From: Hexactinellida sp. DTS-2022
Lineage: Eukaryota; Porifera; Hexactinellida
NCBI GenBank assembly: GCA_028753945.1
Contig: JAPNXP010000001.1
Span: forward strand, 16,978,501 to 17,042,500
Direction: 5' to 3'
Length of the DNA stretch: 64,000 nucleotides
In this document: positions 25,896 through 50,929 of the stretch, piece by piece
Position numbering within the stretch: position 1 is the stretch's first letter
Layout: the number at the start of each line of letters is the position of its first letter
The notes under the pieces: model-generated
Database searches by the model: none
Told to the model about the DNA's origin: nothing
The model's input: the letters and a program-made list of their open reading frames with translations, nothing else
Program-made: the position numbers and the translations under genes

Positions 25896-27662
25896 TCAAA
25901 GAAGTGAGGCTTGCAAGAGTAGAGAGAGGAGTGCAAGGAGTATATGAGCCGTCAGCTGACTAACTTCTGATACACAGGATGACATATCTGACTGTAGCGT
26001 GAAACCAGACATACAGGAACATGTATAGGAACCGATTGTGTTAGTACAGTTGTGTTTACAGTTGTTGGGAGTAGAACACTCGTTTGTATCTTCACAGGAG
26101 TTAGGGGGGTTAAGAGTAAATCCAGACATACAGGAACATGAGTAGGAACCGATGCTGTTAATACAGTTCTGTTCACAGTTGTTGGAAGTAGAACATTCGT
26201 TAGTATCTTCACAGGAGTGAGGGGGGTTAAGAGTGAATCCAGATAAACAGGAACATGTATAGGAACCGATTGTGTTAGTACAGTTGTGTTCACAGTTGTT
26301 GGGAGTAGAACACTCGTTTGTATCTTCACAGGAGTTAGGGGGGTTAAGAGTAAATCCAGACATACAGAAACATGAGTAGGAACCGATGCTGTTAATACAG
26401 TTGTGTTCGCAATTATTGGTAGCAATACACTCGTTTGTATCCACACATAAGTTGTTGGTTCCATTTAGTGTGTATCCATCTCCACAGTCACAGTAGGCAC
26501 TGTCTGCTGTGTTAACACAGTTGCTCTCCGAAGGACAAATGAAACTATCATTGAAGCAATGATAGGATTGATTATTAGGACAGTTAGCGTAATTGGAACT
26601 AACAGCAATTGAGTTCCCATTCAAACTGGAAGGGGTTTCACATATGCCACCAATAACTATCCAACCCAGATTATTAACAACATAACTAACCCATGCCATA
26701 TCACAGTTACAATGGAATGGAACAGAATAACAAGTTATTGCGGATAATGCTTTTTGTCGTTCAAAAAATCTTTGTTCGAGTGAAGTTATAGAAGAAGAGC
26801 TGAAATCGAATTGTGTTAGACTAGGAAATGTCTCTTTGGAAACCAAATCGAAATTCGTTTGCAAGTTCCGAGTATATAATGTTGTCAATCCATCCAATCC
26901 AGATAGTGCGTTCTCTTCAAATGTGAAATTAGAGAAAAATCTGTACAAATACAAATATGCCAAACGTGTCAAGTTAGCAAACTGGTAACTATAGAGGTGT
27001 TGTATTCCTTCCAGAGATAAAACATCAATACGAGTATTAGCGAAACTGCTGGGAATAGCATGATACCACTGTGCGTCTTCTAATTGATACAATCTTAAAA
27101 TATCCAAGTTAGGTAGAATAAGCATTGACGGAAGAATTGTTACGACATTAGGTAGCCTAAGGTAGCGGAGATACAGTCGTGCTAAACTTGTCGAGTTTAA
27201 GTATGGAAAGCGATCGAATACAACATTCTCTACATCGAGGTGTGTAGCGCTTGGGAAATAGTTTAAGAAATCATTAGGACAATATATAACATCCTGATTG
27301 GTTCCATATAAGTATAGAGTTTGGATGACATTTTGAGTCTTGTTGAATTCAATCGAGATTGTATTAAAAACATACAATTGGAATGTGGTTATACCTCCAG
27401 CTATATCCAGTGTGATAGTTTCATTATTCTCCGTAAAATACACTCTAAAGACAATATGAACTCTTCCAGTCTCTGCTGATTCACCAGAACACTTCTTTAT
27501 AAGGTAGCTTGTCCTGATTCCGTTAGATGCCCTTATTGAACAGGCTCTGATAGTAGGCCCAATAGTACAAGTTATTTCTGGCTCATCGAAAATTCCATGT
27601 ACCACAGGGGTATAACTGCAGAGTAGCAGGAAAATAGGAATCGATAGGATCGATAGAAACAT
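25896..27662 (-). CDS. Secreted or GPI-anchored LRR-EGF protein A, single exon, 588 aa
   Basis: Residues 1-23 are a signal peptide. Residues about 90-320 hold irregular leucine-rich repeats (L-x-x-L-x-L and L-x-Y spacing), closed by an LRRCT-like cap with F-H-C-N-C-D-M-A-W and later cysteines (~317-361). One EGF-like domain follows (~369-407), then four calcium-binding EGF domains with the D-T-N-E-C start, N-C-x-H-N-C and G-S-Y-x-C-x-C motifs (~408-568). The last ~20 residues are hydrophobic and end the protein, as in a GPI-attachment signal or short anchor. The EGF units are near-identical ~126-bp DNA repeats, so unit number probably varies. No intron is visible. Probable role is cell-surface recognition; the ligand is unknown. 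A paralogue lies 2.4 kb upstream on the same strand. Confidence 0.9.
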   Translation of the reverse strand: MFLSILSIPIFLLLCSYTPVVHGIFDEPEITCTIGPTIRACSIRASNGIRTSYLIKKCSGESAETGRVHIVFRVYFTENNETITLDIAGGITTFQLYVFNTISIEFNKTQNVIQTLYLYGTNQDVIYCPNDFLNYFPSATHLDVENVVFDRFPYLNSTSLARLYLRYLRLPNVVTILPSMLILPNLDILRLYQLEDAQWYHAIPSSFANTRIDVLSLEGIQHLYSYQFANLTRLAYLYLYRFFSNFTFEENALSGLDGLTTLYTRNLQTNFDLVSKETFPSLTQFDFSSSSITSLEQRFFERQKALSAITCYSVPFHCNCDMAWVSYVVNNLGWIVIGGICETPSSLNGNSIAVSSNYANCPNNQSYHCFNDSFICPSESNCVNTADSAYCDCGDGYTLNGTNNLCVDTNECIATNNCEHNCINSIGSYSCFCMSGFTLNPPNSCEDTNECSTPNNCEHNCTNTIGSYTCSCLSGFTLNPPHSCEDTNECSTSNNCEQNCINSIGSYSCSCMSGFTLNPPNSCEDTNECSTPNNCKHNCTNTIGSYTCSCMSGFTLQSDMSSCVSEVSQLTAHILLALLSLLLQASLL

Positions 27663-28282
27663 GAAATGTAGAATAATTATGGAACAAATTGAAAGGTAAA
27701 GTTTTTTTTATAAATAATTATTCAAATTGGTTATCGTAGGAAATCTGTAAATTAGTAATATGGGTGTATTGTAATAGGAGTGTATGTAGATGGTATGCAT
27801 ACTAACAGTATGGTATAATTGTAAATGGCAATTGCTCTATTATCAAGTTACATGCATAGTAAATATGCACTATAATTTTAGAGAGAGCATAAACTGATAT
27901 TTGTGTAGAATTCACCAAACAATAAATTAGGTACATTCTTTTCTTGTAAACATGTAGGAGAAAATTATGTCAAGAAGGAATTTTATATAAGATACACCCC
28001 TGTTTGGGATAGTGATAATTATTGGGAGAAATTTTGTCGATTATGTGACATGGTGTTTCCTCTTTTATTTAATTATCTATTTATGACCTGTTGCTATTAT
28101 ACTAGATAAACAGGCTTGGAGATAAACATATTTGTTGTTGTTGTTATGAGTATTTATTCATTACTACGTAATTATTCTTTCCAAAACTCAAATAACATCA
28201 ACAAATTCCAATTTAAAAACTTGCATATCGGGCAACACCTTTCTAGTATAATTTTCAGACATTAGCAAATTCATTTATTTAA
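27663..28282. other. Upstream region of LRR-EGF gene A
   Basis: The first ~130 bp match the region upstream of gene B (27720-27790 resembles 32345-32410: 'attagtaatatgggtgtatt'), so the duplication included the promoter. On the minus strand an A/T box ATTTATAAAA lies about 45-55 bp before the ATG. Nothing else recognisable. Confidence 0.5.
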
Positions 28283-28528
28283 TTAACAACAAAAATTCGC
28301 CTTAGCTAAGGCTGGTTTTATATGAATAGGTGTTGGCCGATTGGCGTCTCCTCTCAATTTGAGTACAGCTCTAACCTGTTGTTCACTGCAATCTCGACAA
28401 CTGTTCGCGTGTCTACATAGCATAAATAGGTAAGTGACATTTTCTTTGTAGACAGACCACAGCCCACTCTTCCACATAGTTTTGTTACCTATTGTACATC
28501 CTTGATAAACTGCAAGGTGAATAGCATC
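28283..28528 (-). CDS. Candidate terminal exon, unknown Cys-containing protein
   Basis: A minus-strand frame opens after an AG at 28529-28530 and runs 81 codons to a stop at 28283. AATAAA follows within about 10 bp on the minus strand (28274-28279 read as TTTATT on plus). The peptide holds C-R-H-A-N-S-C-R-D-C-S and A-V-L-K-L-R-G-D-A-N-R-P. The L-K-L-R-G-D piece resembles the SAP-like motif of the giant gene (A-L-K-L-R-G-E), which may be chance. The acceptor has a weak pyrimidine tract, and I could not find earlier exons before gene B. I do not recognise a family. Confidence 0.3.
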   Translation of the reverse strand, partial: DAIHLAVYQGCTIGNKTMWKSGLWSVYKENVTYLFMLCRHANSCRDCSEQQVRAVLKLRGDANRPTPIHIKPALAKANFCC

Positions 28529-28787
28529 CTGATATCAGTGTTTCTATAAATAAAGCACGGCGTTCTTCATGTTATATATTTTGATTTAATCTTGATCTTG
28601 TTATTTCCAGACCGTGGAGGTATCTAACTAGTTGAAAATGGTGTCAGTTATTATTTCATTTAAGATTGACATTAAATTCCAAATTCTATTATGACTTCAC
28701 TTGACTCGTCCTTATGCTGTTATACATATCGATGAAAATTTATATGTACATGGAGGATAAAGTTTATTACAGATAGATGCATATACT

Positions 28788-29043
28788 CAGAGGCGGATCC
28801 AGGGGGCCTGCCCCCCCCCCCCCCCCTTCGAAACTGAAATTGACTGAAATTTAGGCTGAAATTGACAAAATATTTATTTGAATTATGGCTCCTTATAAAG
28901 AAATTAGCGTGTACAATTATTTCTGAGTGTATATAACTCAAACAAATATGGGGGGTTACCCCCCAGACCGCCTTATAAGTTGCTCGCTACGCTCGCATTA
29001 TTTCTTGGGGCCCCCCTTTTCAACATGTCTGGATCCGCCACTG
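28788..29043. mobile_element. hAT-like MITE, 'CAGAGGCGGATCCAG' ends
   Basis: Inverted ends CAGAGGCGGATCCAG / CTGGATCCGCCACTG. The interior has G- and C-homopolymers and 'gctcgctacgctcgc'. No matching 8-bp flank was found. A related left end is at about 37752. Confidence 0.7.
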
Positions 29044-30028
29044 ATATTGAAGACTTTGTTAACTGGAGCATTAGTCAATGAACCACCAAATATAGTGAGT
29101 GCCTCCAAATAAATATGCAGTTGGCACAGCTGTAATTTTAGATTTTTATAGTTCTGAAGTGAGTATTTAATGATATAGCTAATTATGTTCCTCTAATAGC
29201 GAATTTTCCCATTAGCAAGCGAATTTCGTGCCAAATGTGACTTAGTTTTCGCGAACCCCACTGTATATACAGTACGTAGTGGTTCTTGTATTGTACGACT
29301 CTGTCACGAGCGAACACGCCATAGCACGGATAGTAATGTGTTACAAATTTTTAACCACTCAATCATTTGTCTATTCTATTGCATGTTTTTCTTTAGTATT
29401 ATTTGGATTCGAGCTATCCGTGTCGTGCAACTGAAATATATTGAGCTACTTACTAATGGGAGTATATTTGAATTTCCTAAACAAATTACAATGTGTAGCA
29501 TTCTTATTAAGGGGACTTTATGAGGAATATATTTAATACACCACAGAGATGTATACTTCTAAATGATTAATTTCAAGGCGTAGTAAGGCCGCGCAGCGGT
29601 AGTCAATTGAGGCGTGAACGCCGAACAGTCGGTCTGGCAGTCTGGATTTTAATAGAAACCGCATTTTTATATCAGATAAAAACTAGCTTTTAAATGATGC
29701 AATAGGAATAGGTAAATAAGTATGCTGAACATGGGATTTTATAGTAATAGACCGTCTACAATGACTCTACATATAAAGTGATAGAAATCACACGAGATAG
29801 TGCCCCATTAATATTTGAATATAAAAGTAACAAATAGCAAATAGAGATTTATTATCGAATATTAGTGAGTGTAGTTACACACATAAATGAAACAAATAAA
29901 AAGAGAATAATAATAATGAAAAGAGAGGGGTCAATGAAATGAATAAAATATAGAAATTCGAAAAGAATTGTAACTATAAAATAAGTTTAGAAAATAAATG
30001 AGAATAAATAGAGTTAGTCCTATACGAA
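29044..30028. other. Gene-less stretch with repeat fragments
   Basis: Holds half of the GTGCC palindromic element (about 29085-29145), a fragment of the 85-bp CAGT-type MITE ending CCCACTGTATA (29190-29275), and a hairpin cluster with GGCCGC-type stems (29588-29625) next to a 'aatagaaaccgcattt' repeat. No coding signal. Confidence 0.6.
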
Positions 30029-32287
30029 TCAAAGAAGTGAGGCTTGCAAAAGTAGAGAGAGGAGTGCAAGGAGTATATGACCCGTCAGCTGACTAACCCC
30101 TGATACACATGATGACATATCTGACTGTAGCGTGAAACCAGACATACAGGAACATGAGTAGGAACCGATGCTGTTAATACAGTTCTGTTCACAGTTGTTG
30201 GGAGTAGAACATTCGTTTGTATCTTCACAGGAGTGAGAGGGGTTAAGAGTGAATCCAGATAAACAGGAACATGAGTAGGAACCGATGCTGTTAGTACAGT
30301 TGTGATCGCAGTTATTGGTACCAATACACTCGTTTGTATCCACACATAAGTTGTTGGTTCCATTTAGTGTGTATCCATCTATGCATTCACAGTAGGCACT
30401 GTCTACTGTGTTAACACAGTTGCTCTCCGAAGGACAAATGAAACTATCATTGAAGCAATGATAGGATTGATTATTGGGACAGTTAACGTAATTGGAACTG
30501 TCAGCAATTGAGTTTCCATTGAAACTGGAAGGGGTTGCACATATGGCATCATTAACTGTCCAACTCAGATTGTTAACAACATGACTAACCCATGCCATAT
30601 CACAGCTACAATAGAATTGAGTAGAATAACCGGATATTGTGGATAATTCTTTTTGTCTTTCAAAAAATATTTGATCGAGTGTCGTTACAGAAGAATAGCT
30701 TAAATCGAAATGTGTTAGACTAGGAAAAGTCTCTTTGAAAACTAAATCTAGATTTGTTTGCAAGTGCCAAGTAGATAATTGTGCTCATAGGCGTCGAACT
30801 TTCCAATTTTCTGAAAATCTGGAGGGGGCAGCCAGAGAACATTTAAAAGACATTTATTTTATTTTGCAATTAATACGCAAAAATCACGCATTAATAGTAA
30901 ATAAATAACGTAAGTGAGATGTAAATTTACTGAGAAAGCATTATGCAACTTGAAAGTTTTGGCAAATTAAAAAGCTGTTATCCTCCACTGTTTCAACTAA
31001 TTTTCAAGAGTAACGCCAGCTGAGGGGACGAAATCATACTTGCCAAATCTACAGGGATTCCCTGTACAGTACAGGGATTTAAACATTTTGGCGGTTCAGT
31101 ACAGGCGTACAGGGATTTTTAATTTACTAATTATGTGTCAAATAATGCCTAAAAATGTCTACAGTGATGATAGTATATTCTGCCATGCATTCTGCATTGA
31201 CCAGATAAAGGCACAACTGGTTTATATATATATTCAAGCGTACAGGAATTCCCTGTACAAGATATAATTCAATGCTTTCTCCTTTCCAAATACTAATTTA
31301 GCAATGTAAGTGAATAGTAATTCCTTGGACGAGCGAGCGCAGCGAGCGAGAGATTTTTGGGAGGTGTACATGGATTTTGGCCAATGTACAAGGGAAAATT
31401 GGAGCCCTGTACAGGGACATGACTCAAATAGGTTGGCAGGTATGCGAAATCTGGGGGGGGCGAGACCTATGCTGCCCCCCCCGCCCCCCCTGCAACGACG
31501 CCTATGATTGTGCTAATCCATCCAATCCAGATAGTGCGTTCTCTTCAAATGTGAAATCAGTGAAAGAATAGGCCAAATGCAATGTTCTCAAACTTGTCAA
31601 GTGAGCAAACTGGTAACTATAGAGGTGTTGTATTCCAATCATGTCTAAATAATCAATACGAGTATTCTCGAAACTGCTGGGAATAGCATGATACCATTGT
31701 GCGTCTTCTGATTGATACAATATTAAAAAATTCAAGTTAGGTAGAATAAGAATTGATGGCAGAATTGTTACGACATTAGGTAGCCTAGGGTAGCGAAGAC
31801 TCAGTTGTGTCAAACTTGTCGAGTTTAAGTATGGAAAGCGATCGAATACAAGATTTCGTATGACGAGATTTGTAACGCTTGGGAAATAGTTTAAGAAATC
31901 ATAAGGACAATATATAACATCAGCATTGATTTCATATAAATATAGAGTTCGGATGTCCATTTGAGTCTTGTTGAATTCAATCAAGATTGTATCATAAGCA
32001 TACAAAATGAATGTGGTTATACCTCCGGCTATATCCAGTGTGATAGTTTCATTATTCTCAGTAAAATACACAGTAAATCTAGTATCAGTTACTCCACTCT
32101 GTTCTAATTCACCAGAGCACTTCTTTATCAGGTAGCTTGTCCTAGTTCCGTTATCTGCCCTAATTTCACAAGAACTGTGACTACCAGTAGTACAAGTAAA
32201 TTCTAGCTCATCGCAAATTCCGTGTACCACAGGGGTATAACTGCAGAGTAGCAGAAAAATAGGAATCGATAGGATCGATAGAAACAT
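30029..32287 (-). pseudogene. LRR-EGF protein B, split by a transposon
   Basis: Paralogue of gene A with the same signal peptide start (ATG at 32287), LRR region, LRRCT cap, EGF, two (not four) D-T-N-E-C EGF domains and the same hydrophobic tail. The frame is cut at 31506/30786 by a 721-bp element: upstream it runs to ...L-D-G-L-A-Q then a stop, and downstream it resumes in the matching register (Q-T-N-L-D-L-V). The rest of the frame is open, so the insertion is the only lesion visible and is probably recent. As assembled it could give only a truncated secreted LRR fragment. Whether all individuals carry the insertion is unknown. Confidence 0.88.
30786..31506. mobile_element. hAT-like insertion in the LRR-EGF B coding exon
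   Basis: Inverted ends CATAGGCGTCG / CGACGCCTATG. The 8-bp flanks ATTGTGCT at 30778-30785 and 31507-31514 are identical. Inside, at about 31035-31443, a second element with CATACTTGCCAA / TTGGCAGGTATG ends is nested; its relatives are at 33380-33780 and 61930-62680 ('tacagggattccctgtaca'). Confidence 0.92.
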
Positions 32288-32731
32288 GAAATGTAGAATA
32301 TTCAAGAAACAAACTGAAAGGTGTAGTTTATTGTAAATAATCAGTCAATTTGTTATTGTATGAAACTTGTACATTAGTAATATGGGTGTATTATAAAAGG
32401 AAGTGTATATAGATGATAGATTAGTAGTGTTAGGCAATACCTATTACCGAGCATTTAATGTAAATTATGTTCTTCTAATAGCAAGTTCGCCTATTAGCAA
32501 CAAATTTCGTGCATAATATGAACTTTTCGTCGCCTAGGAGGTCGAGAGTTACCCACCTGATCATAGGAGTCGCAAATACGTTGTTTGGCTTACCGGGACA
32601 CTCTTCCAATGAAATCCAGGGACAGAGTTCGAACTACACTCCCGTTATAAGTTATAACGAAGTGCTCGGGAAGTTTCATTTCGATATAACCGGAGTTTGT
32701 TATAAGCGGAGTAAAATCAATAGCTTAGAGT

Positions 32732-33670: not shown

Positions 33671-33977
33671 GTGTAAATTATCAGTTCTTATTCAAGCGTA
33701 AAGGGATTTCCTGTACAATCTAGTATATAAGTACTATCTTATTCAATGTTTTCTCCTTTCAAAGTGGTTAATTTGATTTATGTCAACCTTAATAAATAAA
33801 TATAATTAGCAACAACACTCAAGCTTGTACGTATAAAGAAGCTTTGGTTGTACGCAAGCTTAGGAACCAGTCTATAAAGATAAAATATTTCTTATCAGTC
33901 CACTGATTACTGTAAATAATGGTCATGGTAGTATTTATATACAATATTTTCCTCTATGTTGCATCTTCTCTCTACCA

Positions 33978-34031
33978 CTAGATGCTGCATAGCAATATAG
34001 CAGAACTAATATTAGAGAGAATTGAACTCAT
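33978..34031 (-). CDS. 17-codon leftward frame of cassette 1 (M-S-S-I-L-S type)
   Basis: Downstream of the leftward TATA box. It encodes M-S-S-I-L-S-N-I-S-S-A-I-L-L-C-S-I. Equivalents: 36730-36783 (-), 38711-38767 (+), start 39290 (-), 42206-42259 (-). Copy 5 has ACG instead of ATG, and the C-terminal residues and length vary, so coding is doubtful; the transcript could be non-coding. Confidence 0.25.
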   Translation of the reverse strand: MSSILSNISSAILLCSI

Positions 34032-34108
34032 TCTACTATTCAACAATAGCACAGTAGTTAGAAAGTAGAAAGAGAATCAATTTCTTGTCAAGTGAAGCTT
34101 CTCGCTTC

Positions 34109-34221
34109 TATTTATACTTTTGAGCTCAACTGGTGAATACAATTCCAATTCAGTATTCAATACAAGCGTCTGTGCTGGAAATACTTTAGTAGCTGCTTAG
34201 CAACTCACACAAGTATAAATA
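34109..34221. promoter_or_regulatory. Back-to-back TATA boxes of cassette 1 (pattern in all units)
   Basis: TATTTATA at 34109-34116 (minus-strand TATAAATA) and TATAAATA at 34214-34221 face away from each other. Both have the same core context, AGTATAAATAG. Equivalent pairs: 36861-36868/36966-36973, 38521-38528/38626-38633, 39368-39375/39473-39480, 41235-41242/41340-41347, 42337-42344/42441-42448. Spacing is constant at about 97 bp. The right-hand box lies ~100 bp before the heptad ORF's ATG, leaving a ~65-nt leader if transcription starts ~30 bp downstream. Confidence 0.7.
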
Positions 34222-34313
34222 GGGAACACATTAGAGTGAAATAACTCGATCAGAATACAACTACACTCTTCTCTCCTTTCTTCTCAAACAACAACCTACT
34301 CCACTAAAGCAAA

Positions 34314-34442
34314 ATGAAATTCTTCATGAACAACAAAAGCTCTCTCGATGACGACAAGCACTTTATCGATGACGACAAGCACTCTCTCGATGACGACAAG
34401 ATCTCTGTAGATGACGACAAGATCTCTATAGTGACAGTATGA
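34314..34442 (+). CDS. 42-aa DDDK-heptad peptide, copy 1
   Basis: ATG in an AAAATGA context after a CT-rich leader. The peptide starts M-K-F-F-M-N-N-K-S and then has four heptads: S-L-D-D-D-K-H, F-I-D-D-D-K-H, S-L-D-D-D-K-I, S-V-D-D-D-K-I, ending S-I-V-T-V. No signal peptide is visible. The position downstream of a TATA box favours this strand. The opposite strand has longer open frames (68 and 73 codons) because the 21-bp repeat keeps all frames open, so coding strand is not proven. Function unknown. Confidence 0.5.
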   Translation: MKFFMNNKSSLDDDKHFIDDDKHSLDDDKISVDDDKISIVTV

Positions 34443-35441
34443 AGTCCAGAGGTGGAGTCTAGATCTCTCCACTCTTTTGATGCTCCAATTGTTCCCTGAC
34501 ACCTATTCCATCTACAGCTTAACAACTTGCCATTAACACCATTTGTTAGATTGTATTCTTGATCAACTGTTCTGACCCTATTTGTTGTACCAATTAAATT
34601 CCTCTTCTACTGATTATCCCACTGTATTATAGCAATACGGCACTCTATTCACAGTACAATAATGTGATACTGAGTATTTCGGAATATACTATGTGTTAGT
34701 CATGCTATTGTTGAGACAATTACAGTACAAACTCGCTATTCAAACATTTTGGGGCTTGAGACCAGCCAAATAATGTTCGGATAATTTAACACTGAAATAA
34801 ATTAAATGCAACAAGTTGGGACCAACCTGGGCAATGGGATAATCGAATGCTACAAATTGTGTGTTACGAATAGTACGAATGAAACAGTTGTGAAATCTTA
34901 CATTAGTGTATTTACATTATCCATTTCACTGGCCAAATACTTATTAGCAATTCATCCTTACAAAAAAAGCTTCATATTTGTACGCAATGGAGAGTCGCAA
35001 ATTTTACCTATTGAGCCTAATGCCTAATTTCGACATCCAAATTCAACAAGGGAATGTCTTTTTGTACTCTACTAGAGTTGGTATCGATATTTCAAAATAA
35101 GGGATTCAATTTGGAACTTTAGCTTACATTTAAGGTAAGGAATGACCACTGATTTAAATAACGATTTATTTATATTGGGAATTTATTGATACTTTTAGAT
35201 TATCAAGAACTGGAGAAAAATCACCCCTATATTTTACTTATCCCTGTGTCCAATATGATTATATGTAAGCAATAGACGAGTAGTACATTTATTTGTTAAA
35301 CAACAAAATACAGTTGAATCGATTAATAGTAATACTCTAACTGTAATTAAAATCTAGACTTTAGGTGTTAATAAGGTTGTAGATCAGGTTGTCTTTGCTT
35401 CAATCTAGAATTTGAACGTAGGTTTGCTGTAGGATGGCGAA

Positions 35442-35811
35442 TCAGATGTCAGATGTACTCCCCTGTTCTTGTCCTAATATGAAATCCAACATACAGTAGC
35501 GACAAGAAACATTGTAGCATTGGCCGATCATCATCATGTTGTGTAGTAGAGTTCTGTTGAGCGAAGAGTGTAGAAGTGAAGTCCAATCTTAATTAGTGAA
35601 TTTTTTCAAAATTATTCCTATTTATACTTTTCGATTTTGCTACTCAATTACTTTCAGCAGTTGACAAGCTGAACTCAAAAAGTATAAATAAGAGAGAATG
35701 CTTCACTTGACAATTTCATTCTACTTTCCAACTACTGTGCTCTAATTGAATAGCAGAATGAATTCAATTACCTCTATTGCTAAAACTGCTAAATGTGTTG
35801 AGCAGAAATAG
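35442..35811. repeat. Diverged seventh cassette with different peptide frames
   Basis: The two TATA boxes are again divergent (35619-35626 minus, 35683-35690 plus) but only 57 bp apart. The plus side keeps the leader blocks 'gcttcacttgacaa' and 'aactactgtgct' and opens a 17-codon frame at 35758, M-N-S-I-T-S-I-A-K-T-A-K-C. The minus side has no DDDK repeat; instead a 31-codon frame (35537-35442) starts M-M-M-I-G-Q-C-Y-N-V-S-C. The promoter and one leader are thus shared with the six main units while the other product has been replaced. Confidence 0.6.
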
Positions 35812-36096
35812 TTATAAAGGCTGTTAAGTTATTAACAACAAGGAAAATGCCAATGACTTGACTGGAACTAGGTAATTGAGCCCAATTGAAGGTATGTAAC
35901 ACCGAGTATGTTTACGACAGTCTCATTAGTGTGAGCATTTATGAACCAAAACAATCCGTATGACTATAAAGGAATCATCTAAATTTCTAAGTTTATTGAT
36001 TTGTGTAACTAAGTATTTATAATTGATGAAGGAAACTGAATATGTACACTTCTTAACCAGAATTTCATAATAACTGTGTTCAAATTAATGAAAGTG

Positions 36097-36197
36097 CAGT
36101 GAATTTCGCTTAATAGGAACCCGTGTTTGGCACTAAATCTGGTTGCTAATAGGCGAATGTTGCTAATAAGGGAGTTGCTAATTTAGCAACTCCACTG
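36097..36197. mobile_element. 101-bp CAGT-type MITE
   Basis: Ends CAGTGAATTTCGCTTAATAG / inverted AACTCCACTG, with 'gttgctaat' repeats inside. Same family as 7460-7544. Confidence 0.7.
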
Positions 36198-37065
36198 TAT
36201 GCCATAAAACAGGTATACATAGTATGTTTCTGAACATATGCTTAGCACGCGGTCCGATTGGGTCTGACCTGTTTTAATTTACTGTAGCTATATTATATAA
36301 GAGGTTCCAGTTTTGGCCGGCAACTTTCAACTGTTTTGCAGAGCCGTGCTACGCCCTGATGAATATATATTGATAGTAATATCATCTTGTAAAAAGTAGT
36401 TTATGTAGTATGAATGCATTTCAACTTAGTATATTATAATTATAATTTGTCAATGTCATTGACTAATAAAAATGAAGATATGCCAAATACCATTATGTTC
36501 ATCGAGTTTATATAAACTTAATTATGAAGAATTGGTTCAAATTGGAACATAATTTTGTCAAAAATTACATGATCATGCAAAATACGTCCAGAAAGGTCAT
36601 TACTTGTAATCAACTTCAAAAGCTTATCGATACAGGGAGATTGTCAATAATGATCATTTTTTAAATTAATAAAGTCAAACATTTGTAGATATTTTGTTAG
36701 TACGTATATGTAACATCTTCTCTCTACCACTAGTTGCTGCCTAGCAATATAGCAGAACTAATATTAGAGAGAATTGAACTCATTCTACTATTCAACAATA
36801 GCACAGTAGTTGGAAATAGAATGATGATCAGTTTTCTTGTCAACTGAAGCATCTCGCTTCTATTTATACTTCTGAGCTCAACTGGTCAATACACTTCCAA
36901 TGCAGTATTCAATGCAAGCGTCTGTGCTGGGAATACTTTAGTAGCTGCTTAGCAACTCACACAAGTATAAATAGGGAACACATTAGAGTGAAATAACTCG
37001 ATCAGAATACAACTACACTCTTCTCTCCTTTCTTCTCAAACAACAACCTACTCCACTAAAGCAAA

Positions 37066-37194
37066 ATGAAATTCTTCATGAACAGCAAAAGCTCTCTCGA
37101 TGACGACAAGCACTTTATCGATGACGACAAGCACTCTCTCGATGACGACAAGATCTCTGTAGATGACGACAAGATCTCTATAGTGACAGTATGA
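37066..37194 (+). CDS. 42-aa DDDK-heptad peptide, copy 2
   Basis: Intact frame. It differs from copy 1 by an Asn-to-Ser change at residue 7. TATA box at 36966-36973, leader nearly identical to copy 1. Confidence 0.5.
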   Translation: MKFFMNSKSSLDDDKHFIDDDKHSLDDDKISVDDDKISIVTV

Positions 37195-38299
37195 AGTCCA
37201 GAGGTGGAGTCTAGATCTCTCCACTCTTTTGATGCTCCAATTGTTCCCTGACACCTATTCCATCTACAGCTCAACAACTTGCCATTAACACCATTTGTTA
37301 GATTGTATTCTTGATCAACAGTTCTAACTCTATTTGTTGTACCAATTAAATTCTACTTCTCCCAATTAATCTCAATTTAATATGGTACGATTTGGGCTCT
37401 ATATACACAATAATACAACATTGTTTGTGAAATATTACAATTGGCGATAATTTTCTTAATTTAATTAATACAGCGTGTCACAATGGTTGCTGCAGATAGA
37501 TGGCGCACAGGAAAACAAACATGCATGGTCGGTTCATGGGTGTCTGGATTCATAGGATCTATAGAATTAGGGCCCGTCCCCCTTCAACTAATATTTGAAT
37601 CACAAATAAGTGTATTGTATTTCCATTACTTATTAGTTATTACACAAAGTATAACTTCATTAAATGAACATGGTAATACGAAATTCCGGTAAATAGGAAC
37701 ACTATTTCAGTCCCCTTCAAAGGCTTTTCAATACAAAGGATATTTGTGAATCAGAGGCGAAGCCAGGATTTTTCGGCAGGGGGGTTTCAGGGGTGAACCT
37801 CTATGAGAATTTTATGCTCACAGGGGGGGCAGCCTCAAATTAGGGGGCTGAAAAAACAATTCTCTACATGTCCTCTCAAATAGTCTCATTTATAAATTTT
37901 ACTATTATTAATTTAGTTTAAAAACTCCTACTAATCATTAGTAGTTGATTGGGAATGCAGTTAAGTATAAGCACTAGTGTTAATTAGGGAGTTTAGAGTT
38001 TAAAGATTAGTTTCATCCTAACAGATGTGTGCCATTCAATTTGCATTATTTATAGTATTATGTTTACCAGTATTATATTGTGTCTGAGTCCCAGTAGAGT
38101 CCCTTGTTGCTATATTAAATTTAGATGAATTTGGAGAAGTAGAATTTAATTGGTACAACAAATAGAGTCAGAACTGTGATTAAGAATACAATCTAACAAA
38201 TGGTGTTAATGGCAAGTTGTTAAGCTGTAGATGGAATAGGTGTCAGGGAACAATTGGAGCATCAAAAGAGTGGAGAGATCTAGACTCCACCTCTGGACT

Positions 38300-38428
38300 T
38301 CATACTGTCACTATAGAGATCTTGTCGTCATCTACAGAGATCTTGTCGTCATCGAGAGAGTGCTTGTCGTCATCGATAAAGTGCTTGTCGTCATCGAGAG
38401 AGCTTTTGTTGTTCATGAAGAATTTCAT
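38300..38428 (-). CDS. 42-aa DDDK-heptad peptide, copy 3 (minus strand)
   Basis: Intact, same four heptads as copy 1. TATA box on the minus strand at 38521-38528. The opposite side opens an 18-codon M-S-S-I-L-S-I-I-S-S frame at 38711. Confidence 0.5.
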   Translation of the reverse strand: MKFFMNNKSSLDDDKHFIDDDKHSLDDDKISVDDDKISIVTV

Positions 38429-39572
38429 TTTGCTTTAGTGGAGTAGGTTGTTGTTTGAGAAGAAAGGAGAGAAGAGTGTTGTTGTATTCTAATCGAGTTA
38501 TTTCACTCTAATGTGTTCCCTATTTATACTTGTGTGAGTTGCTAAGCAGCTACTAAAGTATTTGCAGCACAGACGCTTGCATTGAATACTGCATTGGAAG
38601 TGTATTCACCAGTTGAGCTCAAAAGTATAAATAGAAGCGAGAAACTTCACTTGACAAGAAATTGATTCTCTTTCTACTTTCTAACTACTGTGCTATTGTT
38701 GAATAGTAGAATGAGTTCAATTCTCTCTATTATTAGTTCTGCTATATTATTGCTACGCAGCAACTAGTGATAGAGTTAAGACAACAAAGATGAACAGATT
38801 GCTTAGGTTATATTCGCAATTATATCCGCAGATATATTCAAGTGCCCTGTATCGTTAAGTAGTGACAAAAAACACGATAGGTTTTGTCTTGCACGTATAA
38901 ATTAGTTCAAGTCAGCATACTTATAAACAAGCTTCATTTTACAAACTTGATTCTAGCTGATTAAATTTGGGATAATTTCTCAAGAATTGAATTTATAATA
39001 TGAAAAGAAATATACATCATTGTTATTGTGCCATTATTTTTAGATTTTATAGAATTAAATTTAATAATTCAAACTATTTGCTATATAATATCTACAATTT
39101 ATTTATAAATCTAACTTTAGGATGTATGCATTATCATGTTGAACTTATTTTCTCGCCAAACCATCATTAGTTGCTCACTAGAATATGATAGAGCCCTAAC
39201 TTTCAGTAAATCTATCTTACATCTCTCTATCACTAGTTGTTGCATAGCAAATAATATAGCAGAACTAATAATAGAGAGAATTGAACTCATTCTACAATTC
39301 AACAATAGCACAGTAGTTAGAAAGTAGAATGAGAATCAATTTCTTGTCAAGTGAAGCTTCTCGCTTCTATTTATACTTTTGAGCTAAACTGGTGAATACA
39401 CTTCCAATGCAGTATTCAATGCAAGCGTCTGTGCTGGAAATACTTTTGTAGCTGCTTAGCAACTCACACAAGTATAAATAGGGAGCACATTAGAGTTAAA
39501 TAACTCGATCAGAATATAACTACACTCTTTTCTCCTTTCTTCTCAAACAACAACCTACTCCACTAAAGCAAA

Positions 39573-39668
39573 ATGAAATTCTTCATGATCAACAAAAGCT
39601 CTCTCGATGACGACAAGCACTTTTCGATGACGACAAGCACTCTCTCGATGACGACAAGATCTCTGTAG
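39573..39668 (+). pseudogene. DDDK-heptad copy 4, frameshifted
   Basis: One base is missing after the first heptad ('cacttttcgatg' where intact copies read 'cactttatcgatg'). The frame leaves the DDDK register and stops at 39666-39668 after 31 codons. The TATA box and leader are intact. Confidence 0.6.
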
Positions 39669-41046
39669 ATGACGACAAGATCTCTATAGTGACAGTATGA
39701 AGTCCAGAGGTGGAGTCTAGATCTCACCACTCTTTTTATGCTCCAATTGTTCCCTGACACCTATTCCATCTACAGCTTAACAACTTGCCATTAACACCAT
39801 TTGTTAGATTGTATTCTTGATCAACAGTTCTAACTCTATTTGTTGTACCATTAAATTCTACTTCTCCAAATTCATCTCACTTTAATATAGCAACACGGGA
39901 CACTTTGTATACAGTTATATAATACTGATGAGCCAATATTTTAGAATAATATAATTAAATAATGTACTGTATATGGGACTAATCATCATGATCATAAGTG
40001 TCCATTACGGCGGGAGGTGTAATCTGTCCACAGTATCTGGAAAGATAAGAAAAGAGTATTATTCTTTTCTCTCACCCAAATAAATTTGTTTATCCAAACA
40101 AGTTATCGGGATTACATCGTATATAAACCTATGAAGCGAGAAGTGCTAAGCACTCTGATTCGTATCTGTATTACTTAATTATTTAAAACCCGAATTTTAT
40201 TTGTGTGTTTGTTTGTCCGGAGTGTATTAAAGTGCTATAGATTAATAGAAACCGCATTTATAATTGAGAGAGAAACTAACTATCAAATGTTACTACAAAT
40301 GACTGATAAATTGGTTGAGATTACCAAAATTTATACTAATATGAATTATTTTTATTTGTTTCAAAATATGTGATTCAAATTCAATTGAAACTAGTCTAGT
40401 TCTAACGGGCAATGTAAGTGATAATTGTATTGTTTTCGAATGTTACATTGAATACTTTCTATTTACTACGTATATTACATTAAAAATATGTCCAATTACG
40501 TATAATATTTATTGTTGACAAAATTGGTAAACAAGTTTGTGGAATCTTAAATTCACTCAGAGATTTGCTACTAATTTATATTATACAGAATGATTAGTCC
40601 AAGGTTGCAAATGAACAAAGATATTTTCGGGTAAGAGGAATATTATATCGATTGCAAACCAAGAATTGAGTATCAAACCGAATATCTGGGATTCGGTAAG
40701 AATCAATTTATGAATACTGACTATCGGTTCATCCTTGATTTATATCAGTATATTACTCTATTGCAGAACTCTGAATAATCAGTTAATTAATTATATTATT
40801 GCTATTGGAGAGTCCCGGAGTGCTACATTGAAGTGAGAAATATTCAAAGAAGTAGAATTTAATTGGCACAACAAATAGAGTCAGAACTGTTGATCAAGAA
40901 TACAATCTAACAAATGGTGTTAATGGCAAGTTGTTTAAGCTGTAGATGGAATAGGTGTCAGGGAACAATTGGAGCATCAAAAGAGTGGTGAGATCTAGAC
41001 TCCACCTCTGGACTTCATACTGTCACTATAGAGATCTTGTCGTCAT

Positions 41047-41142
41047 CTACAGAGATCTTGTCGTCATCGAGAGAGTGCTTGTCGTCATCGAAAAGTGCTT
41101 GTCGTCATCGAGAGAGCTTTTGTTGATCATGAAGAATTTCAT
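41047..41142 (-). pseudogene. DDDK-heptad copy 5, same frameshift as copy 4
   Basis: Carries the same one-base deletion as copy 4 in inverted orientation, so the two descend from one damaged copy. The opposite-side start codon is also lost (ACG). Confidence 0.6.
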
Positions 41143-42540
41143 TTTGCTTTAGTGGAGTAGGTTGTTGTTTGAGAAGAAAGGAGAAAAGAGTGTAGTTGTA
41201 TTCTGATCGAGTTATTTCACTCTAATGTGTTCCCTATTTATACTTGTGTGAGTTGCTAAGCAGCTACTAAAGTATTTCCGGCACAGACGCTTGCATTGAA
41301 TACTGCATTGGAAGTGTATTCACCATTTGAGCTCAGAAGTATAAATAGAAGCGAGAACTTCACTTGACAAAAAATTGATTCTCATTCTACTTTCTAACTA
41401 CTGTGCCATTGTTGAATAGTAGAACGAGTTCAATTCTCTCTAATATTAGTTCTGCTATATTGCTATGCAGCAACTAGTGGTAGAGAGAAGACAACAAAGA
41501 TGAAAATATTGTATATAAATACTACCATGGCCATTATTTACAGGTAATATATATCGGTAATTAGTGGACGGATATTTAATAGGTGATCTTTATAGACTGG
41601 TTCCTAAGCTTGCGAACAACCAAAGCTTCTTTCTACAAGCTTGAGTGTTGTTGATAGGATTTGGGATATAGTATACGCTTAATTTTATAGACTTTAAATA
41701 ATTAAATGAATTATAGTGAAATTCCTTATTATTTGTGTTTTGAACTTAAGAGATGCAACATAAATCTAGTTTAGTTGACTGTAGAATAATGTTTAGTACA
41801 ACATGGCGTGTTTTTGATAACATTAAATAATTTTTACATAAAACAAATTAGTAAACAAATGTTTGTGGTTTTGCTACGAAATTACCTTGTTAAAATGTAA
41901 ATTATTGAAAAATTCGTATATCAAATTCAAAGAATGAATTGTATTATATTATATGCATATGTTAATATGTACTTAGCTAATGAAACAGGTGTGGATATAC
42001 TCCTCTGGTATTTTAATAGCAATTAGACTGGCCAAATCATTATTAGTAATTTGGAAAATTACAACCATTACAAATACTAGTTGATTGGGCAAAAGGTTTA
42101 GCCGAGGCAACTAGTACAGTGCTAATTAATGAACCTTCGTATGTAGTCTGTACAAAAGCTATGAAGTTCTTCTGTCAATCATTGTCATATATCTTCTCTC
42201 TATCACTAGTTGCTGCACAGCAATATAGCAGAACTAATAATAGAGAGAATTGAACTCATTCTACTACTCAACAATAGCACAGTAGTTAGAAAGTAGAATG
42301 AGAATCAATTTCTTGTCAAGTGAATCTTCTCGCTTCTATTTATACTTTTAGTTCAACTGGTGAATACACTTCAAATGCAGTATTCAATGCAAGCGTCTGT
42401 ACTGGAAATACTTTAGTAGCTGCTTAGCAACTCACACAAGTATAAATAGGGAACACATTAGAGTGAAATAACTCGATCAAAATACAACTACACTCTTCTC
42501 TCCTTTCTTCTCAAACAACAACCTACTCCACTAAAGCAAA

Positions 42541-42669
42541 ATGAAATTCTTCATGATCAACAAAAGCTCTCTCGATGACGACAAGCACTTTATCGATGAC
42601 GACAAGCACTCTCTCGATGACGACAAGATCTCAGTAGATGACGACAAGATCTCTATAGTGACAGTATGA
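42541..42669 (+). CDS. 42-aa DDDK-heptad peptide, copy 6
   Basis: Intact. Residue 6 is Ile where copy 1 has Asn, and a silent change (tct to tca) lies in the last heptad. TATA box at 42441-42448. Confidence 0.5.
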   Translation: MKFFMINKSSLDDDKHFIDDDKHSLDDDKISVDDDKISIVTV

Positions 42670-43233
42670 AGTCCAGAGGTGGAGTCTAGATCTCGCCACT
42701 CTTTTGATGCTCCAATTGTTCCCTGACACCTATTCCATCTACAGCTTAAACAACTTGCCATTAACACCATTTGTTAGATTGTATTCTTGATCAACAGTTC
42801 TGACTCTATTTGTTGTACCAATTAAATTCTACTTCTCCAAATCCATCTCAATTTAATATAGCAACACGGAACTTTCCAATAGCAATAATATTTTAACTGA
42901 TTAACTGATTATTCAGAGTTTTGCAATAGAGTAATACACTGATATAAATACAATGATGAACCGATAATCAGTATTCATAAATCGATTCTTACCGATTCCC
43001 AGGTATTCGGTTAGATACTCAATTCTAGGTTTGCAACCGATATCAAGTATTCACCAAATAATATTCCGTTTAACCGAAAATATCTTTGTACATTTGCAAC
43101 CTTGGACTAATGATACTGTATTATAATAAATTAGTAGCAAATCTCTAAGTGAATTATAAGATTCCACAAACTTGTTTAACCATTTGGTCAACAATATATA
43201 TTTAAGTAATTAGAACTTTTTGAATGTATTGTA

Positions 43234-43405: not shown

Positions 43406-43751
43406 TTTATACGTAAAGAGAATATTCAAATTTACCAATCGAAATCAGCACAATTATTATTTACATTGCCCGTTAGAACTAGACTTTAGTTTCATTTGAA
43501 TTTAAATCAATAATTTTGTAAACAAAGACTGATTATTCATATTAGAAATTTTTGAGATCGTATCCAATTTATTGTTCATTTGTAATAACATTTGGAAGTT
43601 AGTTTCTCTCTCAATTATAAATGCGGTTTCTATACATCTATAGCACTTTAATACTATCCGGACAAACAAACACACAAATAAGAATCGGATTTTAAATACT
43701 TAAGTAATACAGATACGAATCAGAGTTCTTAACACTTCTCTTTATAGGTTT

Positions 43752-48988: not shown

Positions 48989-50929
48989 ATGGATGCTTCG
49001 CCGAATTTTGATTCCACAGAAAGTGAACATAGCGAGAATTCCGATGCAAATAGTGAGATTGAGGATACTTTAGATGAAAGTGATGTTGTCTCCAATCAAG
49101 AACAAGATGCAATTTATACTGAGTGTACAACTCATGCGAAATCCCCTCCAAATTCACATCAATTAGAAATACTGAAATCTCGTTTTAAACTTGATGGGTT
49201 CAAAAATTCGCAGTGGAAAGTTATTAGTACTCTTCTAGATTGCTTTGATAATAAGAAGTCCTCTGATATAATAGATCAATGTATTATAGCTGCAAGTGGA
49301 TTTGGCAAGAGTCTTTGTTATCAGTTTGTACCAGTTTATACAAATACTCTAGCTTTGGTAATCAGTCCATTAATTTCATTAATGCAAGATCAGGTGCGAC
49401 TCATGAAGGAAATTGGTATCCCTGCTACATTCCTAGGCTCAGGACAGAAAGATTCGCGTAATGAGAAAATACGACTCTTCAATCGAGAGATGAACCTGCT
49501 GTACATTACTCCAGAACTTTGCTTTAGCAAAGGATCTACTTTGATATTAGATTTGCAAAATAAGGTACCAATTTGTTTGGTTGCTATAGATGAGGCACAT
49601 TGCGTTTCATGTTGGGGCCACGACTTCCGACCCAAATATGGGAAACTGTCACAAATACGAGAGTTAATGCCCGAGGTACCTTTTATAGCACTCACAGCTA
49701 CTGCTAGTAAAATTGTGCTTCATGACATAGTAAATAAACTATCATTTAAAAATACTCTCGTTCACACCACTACTCTCAATCGTCCAAATCTGTATTTCGA
49801 ATTTTATAGAAAACAGGAAGGCGCCGGAAGAGCGGAAGGTAATCTAAAGAAATTCTTAAAAGTCAAAGACCCACTATCTTCTAATGAAACGTACTCATTT
49901 GGTTGTTCATGTATTGTATATTGCATTACAAGGGCCTCTACTGAGCGTGTTTGCCAAACACTAGCAAATCTAGGCGTTAAGTGTAGTTTTTATCATGCTG
50001 GAATGAATAAAGTTTCACGAGAAATTGTCCACGATAAATTTGTAAGAAATGAAATAGAATGCATCGTTGCAACAATTGCTTTCGGTATGGGAATTGATAA
50101 GCCTGATGTTAGGATGATTTTACACTATGGAGCTCCCAAAGATATGGAGAGTTATATGCAAGAAGCTGGGCGTGCTGGTAGAGATAAACAGCCTAGTAGA
50201 TGTATCGTATTAAATTCTAATGTGGATTATAGACTTTGGCGAAACATTATAACTAAATCGACTTCATCAAATCCTATTTTAAGAGAGCATCGCCTAAATA
50301 AACTAACTAAAGTTGAAATTTTTTTGAATTCAGATGATTGCAGGCGTAAACAATTACTTGAATATTTTAGTGAAACATATTCAGAAGACCCTTCTATACG
50401 TTGTTGTGATATATGTACTAGAAAGCTATTAGTTTCAGAGTTGAACCTGAGACTCCTTGCTATTCGGGCAAAGCTCGGAGTTGAGTTAAATGTTGAACCA
50501 ATTATGATCTTTTCGAATGGTGTGATTATGCAATTTGCTCAATCACAAAGTATTGGTTTAGAAAACAGTGAACACGAAGAACTTATTTCAAAGACTCTTT
50601 ATTCAAAGTATTCCCCGTATTTCTTGCAGGAAATTACAGACTTTATTAATAAAAATCCAGAAATCGAATCGAAAGTGGTTACAAATACCGCGGTTCGTCC
50701 TCGCAAACGGTCATACAAACAGTATGCTTTACCAAATGAACCTCAGGTATCATCCCAATCCACATTAATAAATGTATCTGATACAGTACTGTTTCATAGA
50801 TCCGAGCATCTTCCCCCAATTTCTGATGAAGATGAACAAATGATAGTTGGCCCAACTCACGAAGAAGATCCTTTATCCTACCCAGTCAAAAGAACCAAGA
50901 TTTCTTCAAACTGGGAAAGACCAGTTTAA
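48989..50929 (+). CDS. WRN: WRN-like RecQ DNA helicase, single exon, 646 aa
   Basis: Acidic N-tail (1-50), then a complete RecQ core: Walker A A-S-G-F-G-K-S (~102-108), I-S-P-L-I-S-L-M-Q-D-Q motif Ia, DEAH box with H-C-V-S-C-W-G-H-D-F-R (201-213), A-L-T-A-T-A motif III, Y-H-A-G-M (336-340), A-T-I-A-F-G-M-G-I-D and Q-E-A-G-R-A-G-R-D motif VI (391-399). A zinc-binding C-R-R-K...C-C-D-I-C follows (~448-475), and then an HRDC-like piece I-M-I-F-S-N-G-V-I-M (~500). The H-Y-G-A-P-K-D-M-E-S-Y-x-Q-E run is closest to WRN. It unwinds 3'-5' in DNA repair in the nucleus by family knowledge. The WRN exonuclease domain is absent and the winged-helix part looks short or missing. An AG 6 bp before the ATG could be an acceptor for an upstream exon. 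Confidence 0.9.
   Translation: MDASPNFDSTESEHSENSDANSEIEDTLDESDVVSNQEQDAIYTECTTHAKSPPNSHQLEILKSRFKLDGFKNSQWKVISTLLDCFDNKKSSDIIDQCIIAASGFGKSLCYQFVPVYTNTLALVISPLISLMQDQVRLMKEIGIPATFLGSGQKDSRNEKIRLFNREMNLLYITPELCFSKGSTLILDLQNKVPICLVAIDEAHCVSCWGHDFRPKYGKLSQIRELMPEVPFIALTATASKIVLHDIVNKLSFKNTLVHTTTLNRPNLYFEFYRKQEGAGRAEGNLKKFLKVKDPLSSNETYSFGCSCIVYCITRASTERVCQTLANLGVKCSFYHAGMNKVSREIVHDKFVRNEIECIVATIAFGMGIDKPDVRMILHYGAPKDMESYMQEAGRAGRDKQPSRCIVLNSNVDYRLWRNIITKSTSSNPILREHRLNKLTKVEIFLNSDDCRRKQLLEYFSETYSEDPSIRCCDICTRKLLVSELNLRLLAIRAKLGVELNVEPIMIFSNGVIMQFAQSQSIGLENSEHEELISKTLYSKYSPYFLQEITDFINKNPEIESKVVTNTAVRPRKRSYKQYALPNEPQVSSQSTLINVSDTVLFHRSEHLPPISDEDEQMIVGPTHEEDPLSYPVKRTKISSNWERPV

Follow-up and report, generated by a model that had tools for sequence, protein, structure and literature searches.

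A clustered family of divergent small units in a glass sponge, with a candidate DDDK-heptad micropeptide on one side

Divergent histone H2A–H2B pairs are multicopy and share a short promoter between their two genes. The silkmoth chorion locus is described as 127 genes spread over 871,711 bp, in which the HcA/HcB and middle A/B genes form divergent pairs with a common promoter, and for which both duplication and gene conversion have been invoked (PMC4639761). In that account the HcA/HcB promoters are more than 90% identical from TATA box to TATA box, and the Hc region holds 18 pairs in one orientation and three reversed (PMC4639761). Among glass sponges, the genome of Aphrocallistes vastus is reported to have local tandem expansions with many single-exon genes that lack syntenic counterparts in Oopsacas minuta, and the gene-cluster sections of this report describe no divergent micropeptide units (PMC10282587). 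Here, we describe a family of small divergent units found in a 64,000-nucleotide stretch (the window) of the genome of the glass sponge Hexactinellida sp. DTS-2022 (assembly GCA_028753945.1; contig JAPNXP010000001.1, here C1, positions 16978501–17042500; C1 is 17.64 Mb of a 112,398,167-base genome in 18 contigs). Each unit has two outward-facing TATA boxes and two sides: the R side, where a 42-codon frame encodes four xxDDDK heptads, and the opposite L side. On balance, the sequence makes it probable that these units are a lineage-specific, concertedly evolving family of micropeptide genes.

Specifically, comparing the sponge units with these systems reveals both likenesses and differences. 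As in the chorion locus described above, a two-TATA promoter is shared, the family is large (35 full units over 0.82 Mb), and at least one copy is a mosaic. In contrast, neighboring sponge units alternate in orientation in all 33 cases, whereas the chorion Hc pairs mostly keep one orientation, and a coding signal is seen on one side of the sponge unit, whereas the chorion pairs encode larger eggshell proteins on both sides. By analogy of layout and concerted evolution, we regard the chorion locus as the nearest organizational relative rather than a family to which the sponge units belong, and we claim no sequence relation. Unlike the H2A–H2B pairs, the sponge units have no histone-like protein, end in an ATTAAA-type signal and give no Rfam match in the window; they also differ from the largest cluster reported in A. 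vastus, which encodes AIG1-domain proteins (PMC10282587).

A sequence-only reading of the window had proposed six such units on both strands, and both renewed reading and a BLAST search of the window with unit 1 recovered them. We refer to these as type A, and to a diverged sister unit lying among them as type B. The orientation of a unit is that of its R side (the strand of the heptad frame), with the L side running the other way; the edges of unit 1 were set from a 35-copy profile, and the limits of units 2–6 are the BLAST extent.

33963..34606, plus strand: type A unit 1 (conserved block)
36707..37360, plus strand: type A unit 2 (96% to unit 1)
38095..38801, minus strand: type A unit 3 (94%)
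39222..39898, plus strand: type A unit 4 (95%), frame shifted
40848..41513, minus strand: type A unit 5 (96%), frame shifted by the 1-nt deletion of unit 4
42191..42873, plus strand: type A unit 6 (95%)
35270..35820 (approximate), minus strand: type B unit, R side minus and L side plus (four copies in the genome)

The clustered divergent-promoter family seen by that reading proves to be considerably larger. Searches of the genome with the 42-residue peptide and with the promoter core gave at least 35 and at least 36 matches (both lower bounds), all of them within 0.82 Mb of C1 (16.55–17.37 Mb), near one end of the contig. A search with unit 1 located 35 full copies along with two fragments, so that 29 full type A copies on the same contig join the six in the window; these copies, the type B unit and the alternating orientation had gone unnoticed in the sequence-only reading. 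A third fragment, at 16940542, consists of the L side and promoter alone and breaks off ~24 bp beyond the TATA box of the R side. Taken together, type A and type B units fall into six clusters that hold between 3 and 16 units each. The cluster at 16.95–16.97 Mb is two pairs 10 kb apart, and the remaining gaps are 0.42–1.95 kb.

The most uniform feature of the units is their promoter. The boxes, TATTTATA...TATAAATA, face outward and lie 97 bp apart in five type A units of the window and 96 bp apart in the sixth, close to the ~97 bp first noted; in type B the same divergent layout has a spacing of 56 bp. Box pairs with a gap of 94–99 bp occur six times in the window and never in 60 dinucleotide shuffles. 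On both strands, AAGTATAAATA occurs 14 times in the window, every time in one of the seven units (type B included), and across 174 kb examined it turned up 79 times in units, with a single occurrence elsewhere. In the same 174 kb, divergent box pairs were found 39 times in units and not at all outside. Variable sites across all 35 copies make up 1 of 16 in the TATA boxes and 39 of 93 in the intervening spacer (Fisher p=0.005). The best reading of these observations is that each unit may have a single bidirectional promoter with two outward TATA boxes.

34109..34116, minus strand: L-side TATA box, unit 1 (1/8 sites variable, 35 copies)
36861 (minus), 38626 (plus), 39368 (minus), 41340 (plus), 42337 (minus): starts of the L-side TATA boxes, units 2–6
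34214..34221, plus strand: R-side TATA box, unit 1 (0/8 sites variable, 35 copies)
36966 (plus), 38521 (minus), 39473 (plus), 41235 (minus), 42441 (plus): starts of the R-side TATA boxes, units 2–6

The R side has the order expected of a small gene: a TATA box, an ATG 100 bp after the box, the 42-codon frame, and an ATTAAA 150 bp after the stop codon. The transcript would be expected to start ~30 bp past the TATA box and so to have a leader of ~70 nt, and the whole looks like a complete small RNA polymerase II gene. The ATTAAA is present in every one of the 35 copies, with conservation collapsing shortly 3′ of it, which adds a conserved 3′ signal to the TATA box, leader and ATG from which real transcription units had been suggested. 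As first described, four of the frames in the window are intact and the other two have one 1-nt deletion in common.

34314..34442, plus strand: DDDK-heptad frame of 42 codons, unit 1, intact
37066..37194, plus strand: heptad frame, unit 2, intact
38300..38428, minus strand: heptad frame, unit 3, intact
39573..39700, plus strand: heptad frame, unit 4, 1-nt deletion (ATG at 39573)
41015..41142, minus strand: heptad frame, unit 5, the 1-nt deletion of unit 4 (ATG at 41142)
42541..42669, plus strand: heptad frame, unit 6, intact
34593..34598, plus strand: ATTAAA poly(A)-type signal, unit 1
34437..34517, plus strand: candidate 81-nt intron (GTATGA...CTGAC...CTACAG), unit 1
33978..34031, minus strand: L-side frame of 17 codons, MSSILS..., unit 1 (codons neutral across copies)

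Conserved blocks elsewhere that lacked the frame had been named as refuting the proposal. Such blocks exist, but they are few: 32 of the 35 full copies keep the frame (30 at 42 residues and two one heptad shorter), whereas it is broken in three (two with the common frameshift, one disrupted) and absent from the three fragments. The sole clean change in repeat number is an in-frame deletion of one 21-nt heptad in two copies, probably a single event. In the 32 copies with an intact frame, which are the basis for the counts that follow, variable sites number 26/51 in the L frame, 37/92 in the spacer, 5/38 in the R core, 14/63 in the R leader, 18/123 in the heptad open reading frame (ORF), 10/81 in the candidate intron, 10/45 in the next 45 nt and 45/49 in the right flank; the ORF is less variable than the spacer (Fisher p=3e-5).

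The L side presents a different picture. The M-S-S-I-L-S frame opposite the heptads is present as reported, with 17 codons in 25 of 35 copies; a peptide product from it is unsupported, because its 36 variants (9 synonymous, 27 non-synonymous) follow the expected synonymous fraction of 0.243, the neutral pattern. By eye, no poly(A)-type signal was seen at the end of the L block.

Type B keeps this layout with quite different coding content on its R side.

35442..35537, minus strand: type B R-side frame, 31 codons, MMMIGQCYN...
35758..35811, plus strand: type B L-side frame, 17 codons, MNSITSIAK...
35288..35293, minus strand: AATAAA poly(A)-type signal, type B R side (identical in all four type B copies)

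Its four genome copies were found in a separate search, and in two of them the L-side frame is cut to 12 codons. The L sides of the two types align over ~150 bp, from the TATA box to past the short frame, and score 138, where the highest of 500 shuffles reached 55. The whole R sides, including the TATA box, score 47, the best of 500 shuffles reaching 45, and for the parts 23 of 500 shuffles equal or beat the leader and 13 of 500 the 3′ part; homology of the R sides is thus suggestive only. Divergence among the three distinct type B copies is 0–0.037 in the R core, the spacer and the L side and 0.085–0.107 in the flanks; at 0.053–0.060, the remainder of the R side is less protected.

The arrangement of the units is as striking as their sequence. 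When neighbors are taken as units less than 20 kb apart, each given the orientation of its R side, they are oppositely oriented in 33 of 33 cases, although these cases are not independent, parts of the array having been duplicated. Alternation should survive both an unequal exchange between direct copies and an inversion between inverted ones, so a single founding inverted pair would suffice to explain it. Such inverted neighbors might also be thought to yield read-through hairpins or convergent double-stranded RNA (dsRNA), with small RNA rather than a peptide as the product: R sides face each other in 14 gaps at a mean distance of 1.04 kb, and the two face-to-face type A pairs in the window are 98% complementary over 423–485 nt. 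We give this idea very little credence; read-through would be expected to stop at the ATTAAA that closes the block, and the alternation has the simpler recombination explanation just given. One of the duplicated parts is a near-perfect inverted duplication inside the largest array (C1 ~16780000–16803000), in which the 900-bp flanks of paired units differ by 0–0.1% and some flanks have been swapped between pairs.

The flanks show that many units were duplicated together with their surroundings. For pairs of units whose best flank match adjoins the unit over at least 150 bp, divergence is 0.134 on the left (34 pairs) and 0.130 on the right (55 pairs), whereas the units of the same pairs differ by 0.025 and 0.033, respectively. 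Under a looser rule (any adjoining match of at least 150 bp), 27 of 595 pairs have just the left flank in common, 72 just the right and nine both. Flanks that were co-duplicated and have since diverged several times faster than the units argue against a bare mobile element. The sharp left edge and the large number of similar copies on either strand are what a miniature inverted-repeat transposable element or another small transposon hopping locally might leave, but all 36 promoter matches found are confined to 0.82 Mb of the 112-Mb genome, orientation alternates throughout, the only terminal inverted repeat in unit 1 is a chance-like 6-nt match, and a simple check for 6-nt target-site duplications at the aligned edges was negative in 35 of 35 copies. 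We therefore reject this origin, which we hold to be highly improbable, on the confinement, the co-duplicated flanks, the alternation and the lack of target-site duplications.

Exchange between copies can be seen directly. Unit 16793193+ equals 16779771- from its left edge to the position corresponding to 34478 of unit 1, and equals 16790539- from position 34407 to 34681; it is clearly a mosaic, with a crossover between inverted copies inside the R gene and the switch at 34406–34479. Copies within a cluster are slightly closer than copies in different clusters (0.029 versus 0.035; a difference as large in none of 1000 permutations; 34 of the 35 copies). The mosaic, the one-sided sharing of flanks and the closeness within clusters could all be expected if the family were a passive, recombining satellite-like repeat, whose copies are kept alike by array growth, inversion and gene conversion and whose promoters and frame are functionless leftovers. 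We consider this improbable: variability is unevenly distributed, with the TATA boxes far less variable than the spacer between them; the L codons are neutral while the heptad codons lean toward synonymous change; and in type B the promoter and L side have diverged less than the flanks.

The codons themselves lend the heptad peptide modest support. The sequence-only reading had found the copies too similar for selection to be judged by eye and had proposed a codon comparison, and the outcome is divided. Across the whole frame, 7 of 19 variants are synonymous and 12 are non-synonymous, against an expected synonymous share of 0.19 (p=0.06), and 10 of 19 fall at third positions (p=0.065); within the heptad part, 6 of 11 are synonymous against an expected 0.21 (p=0.015), in a split from the N-terminal part that was post hoc, being chosen once the variants were known.

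Several observations weigh against a family held together by selection for its peptide. Seven of the 12 non-synonymous variants lie in codons 4–7, and the N-terminal part of the frame shows no synonymous excess (1/8). The candidate intron and 3′ part is conserved like the ORF (10/81 versus 18/123 variable sites, p=0.68), and as a result the constraint is not specific to the peptide. The near-identical codons across the DDDK repeats look like recent or homogenized repetition rather than old protein-level selection, and gene conversion could explain part of the low divergence, the copies being similar and recombining. Likewise, some pairs have identical or nearly identical flanks on one side and units 2–3% apart, the reverse of the general trend; the inspected examples are mosaics. 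Part of this evidence is what one would expect if the R transcript acted as RNA, whether non-coding or dependent on its 3′ end, with the heptad frame a by-product of a short DNA repeat: the 81 nt after the frame are conserved like the frame and the leader (14/63) nearly so, most variants in the frame are non-synonymous, and type B keeps the layout with a different R-side coding content. Yet the frame is open in nearly all copies, the heptad deletion is in frame, the heptad variants lean synonymous, and no Rfam family exceeds its gathering score in the window. We regard an RNA product as unlikely, though well worth keeping in mind. A ~37-nt trans-spliced leader is reported from a glass sponge (PMC10282587), and spliced-leader and small nuclear RNA loci were therefore considered; they were set aside, as by eye the expected R start is not followed by any early GT donor that has an Sm-like site, and Rfam gave no match in the window.

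Splicing of the R transcript is possible, and the 81-nt intron is a candidate only. It starts at codon 42; all 35 copies have GTATGA and 34 have the acceptor AG. Against splicing, only one of the four type B copies has an acceptor AG at the matching place. Because this segment is conserved like its surroundings, its conservation is not diagnostic of splicing, and in the spliced reading the added tail would be variable, with several copies altered, frameshifted or extended.

Returning to the family of micropeptide genes that we favor, each unit would have a bidirectional promoter from which the R side yields an mRNA of ~360 nt, probably polyadenylated, whose main product would be a 42-residue acidic DDDK-heptad micropeptide, and the L side a shorter transcript, most likely without a protein product. 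High dosage would come from ~35 copies in six clusters over 0.82 Mb near the contig end. An inverted pair may have been the start of the arrays, which would then have grown through unequal exchange and through inversions from one unit to another, with recombination and purifying selection together keeping the copies alike. One could go further and propose a gene system specific to glass sponges, in which the alternating inverted array is itself a functional layout that mass-produces a repeat micropeptide (its heptads forming, at low confidence, beta hairpins with DDDK turns), allows face-to-face R genes to form dsRNA and is continually reshuffled by inversions; this we think quite improbable.

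Consistent with the earlier statement that no described family is known to have this peptide, no relative of the 42-residue peptide was found among 5.8 billion proteins at E 0.001, or in Pfam or PDB sequences. A single-sequence structure prediction has a mean predicted local distance difference test score of 67.6 and a predicted template modeling score of 0.27, and at this poor confidence hints at a weak beta hairpin around a DDDK turn (residues 28–41). Glassin, a His- and Asp-rich silica protein of glass sponges, is described as having a signal peptide (PMC10772126). In composition only, the heptad peptide is like Glassin in its Asp-rich repeats and some His; unlike the much longer Glassin, it has, by eye, no obvious secretion signal or hydrophobic leader. 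A link to silica deposition, drawn from the Asp-rich make-up only, is accordingly weak. The family was not found in literature on glass-sponge promoters and genomes, O. minuta tandem genes, alternating arrays, and restricted or short-ORF genes, as represented by titles and the starts of abstracts, with subscription papers mostly outside this set. Multicopy divergent arrays that evolve in concert are an established kind of locus; judged by this literature, what appears to be new is the peptide, the lineage in which it occurs and the alternating orientation.

The remainder of the window holds several other features. To the left of the units, a 1635-residue single frame (7750–12657, minus strand) has a PAN domain at residues 1409–1482 and, by eye, Asp/Gly-rich low-complexity parts. 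Tandem related genes follow at 25896–32305 (minus strand), among them a 588-residue frame with four EGF_CA matches, whose N-terminal half appears by eye to resemble leucine-rich repeats (LRR) and gives no Pfam LRR match; the copy beside it consists of two separate frames (30029–30763 and 31502–32305) and is either interrupted or intron-bearing. To the right, a single-exon RecQ-like helicase frame (48989–50929, plus strand) matches DEAD, Helicase_C and RecQ_Zn_bind, with no RQC or HRDC match at E 0.001; its best named relative is from O. minuta (58% identity, covering 67% of the query), and five matches rank higher, at up to 83% identity over the full length. Outside the units, a 216-bp inverted repeat (40138–40353 and 43525–43740) is 86% complementary. 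A stretch with long G runs, seen by eye against AT-rich surroundings in the gap between units 2 and 3 (37740–37860), might represent a piece of some dispersed repeat.

It is informative to consider what these units may mean for the sponge. The most likely biology is that of a highly expressed, lineage-specific small acidic protein made from many copies. Should the R side prove to be expressed and translated, this small sponge genome would maintain an orphan micropeptide at ~30 copies, and the locus would stand beside the insect chorion locus as a natural large array of divergent promoters. The alternation also leads to a prediction of how the array grew, from a founding inverted pair by exchange that preserves alternation. 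If instead the units are unexpressed, they would be a clear example of recombination keeping gene-like repeats looking alive.

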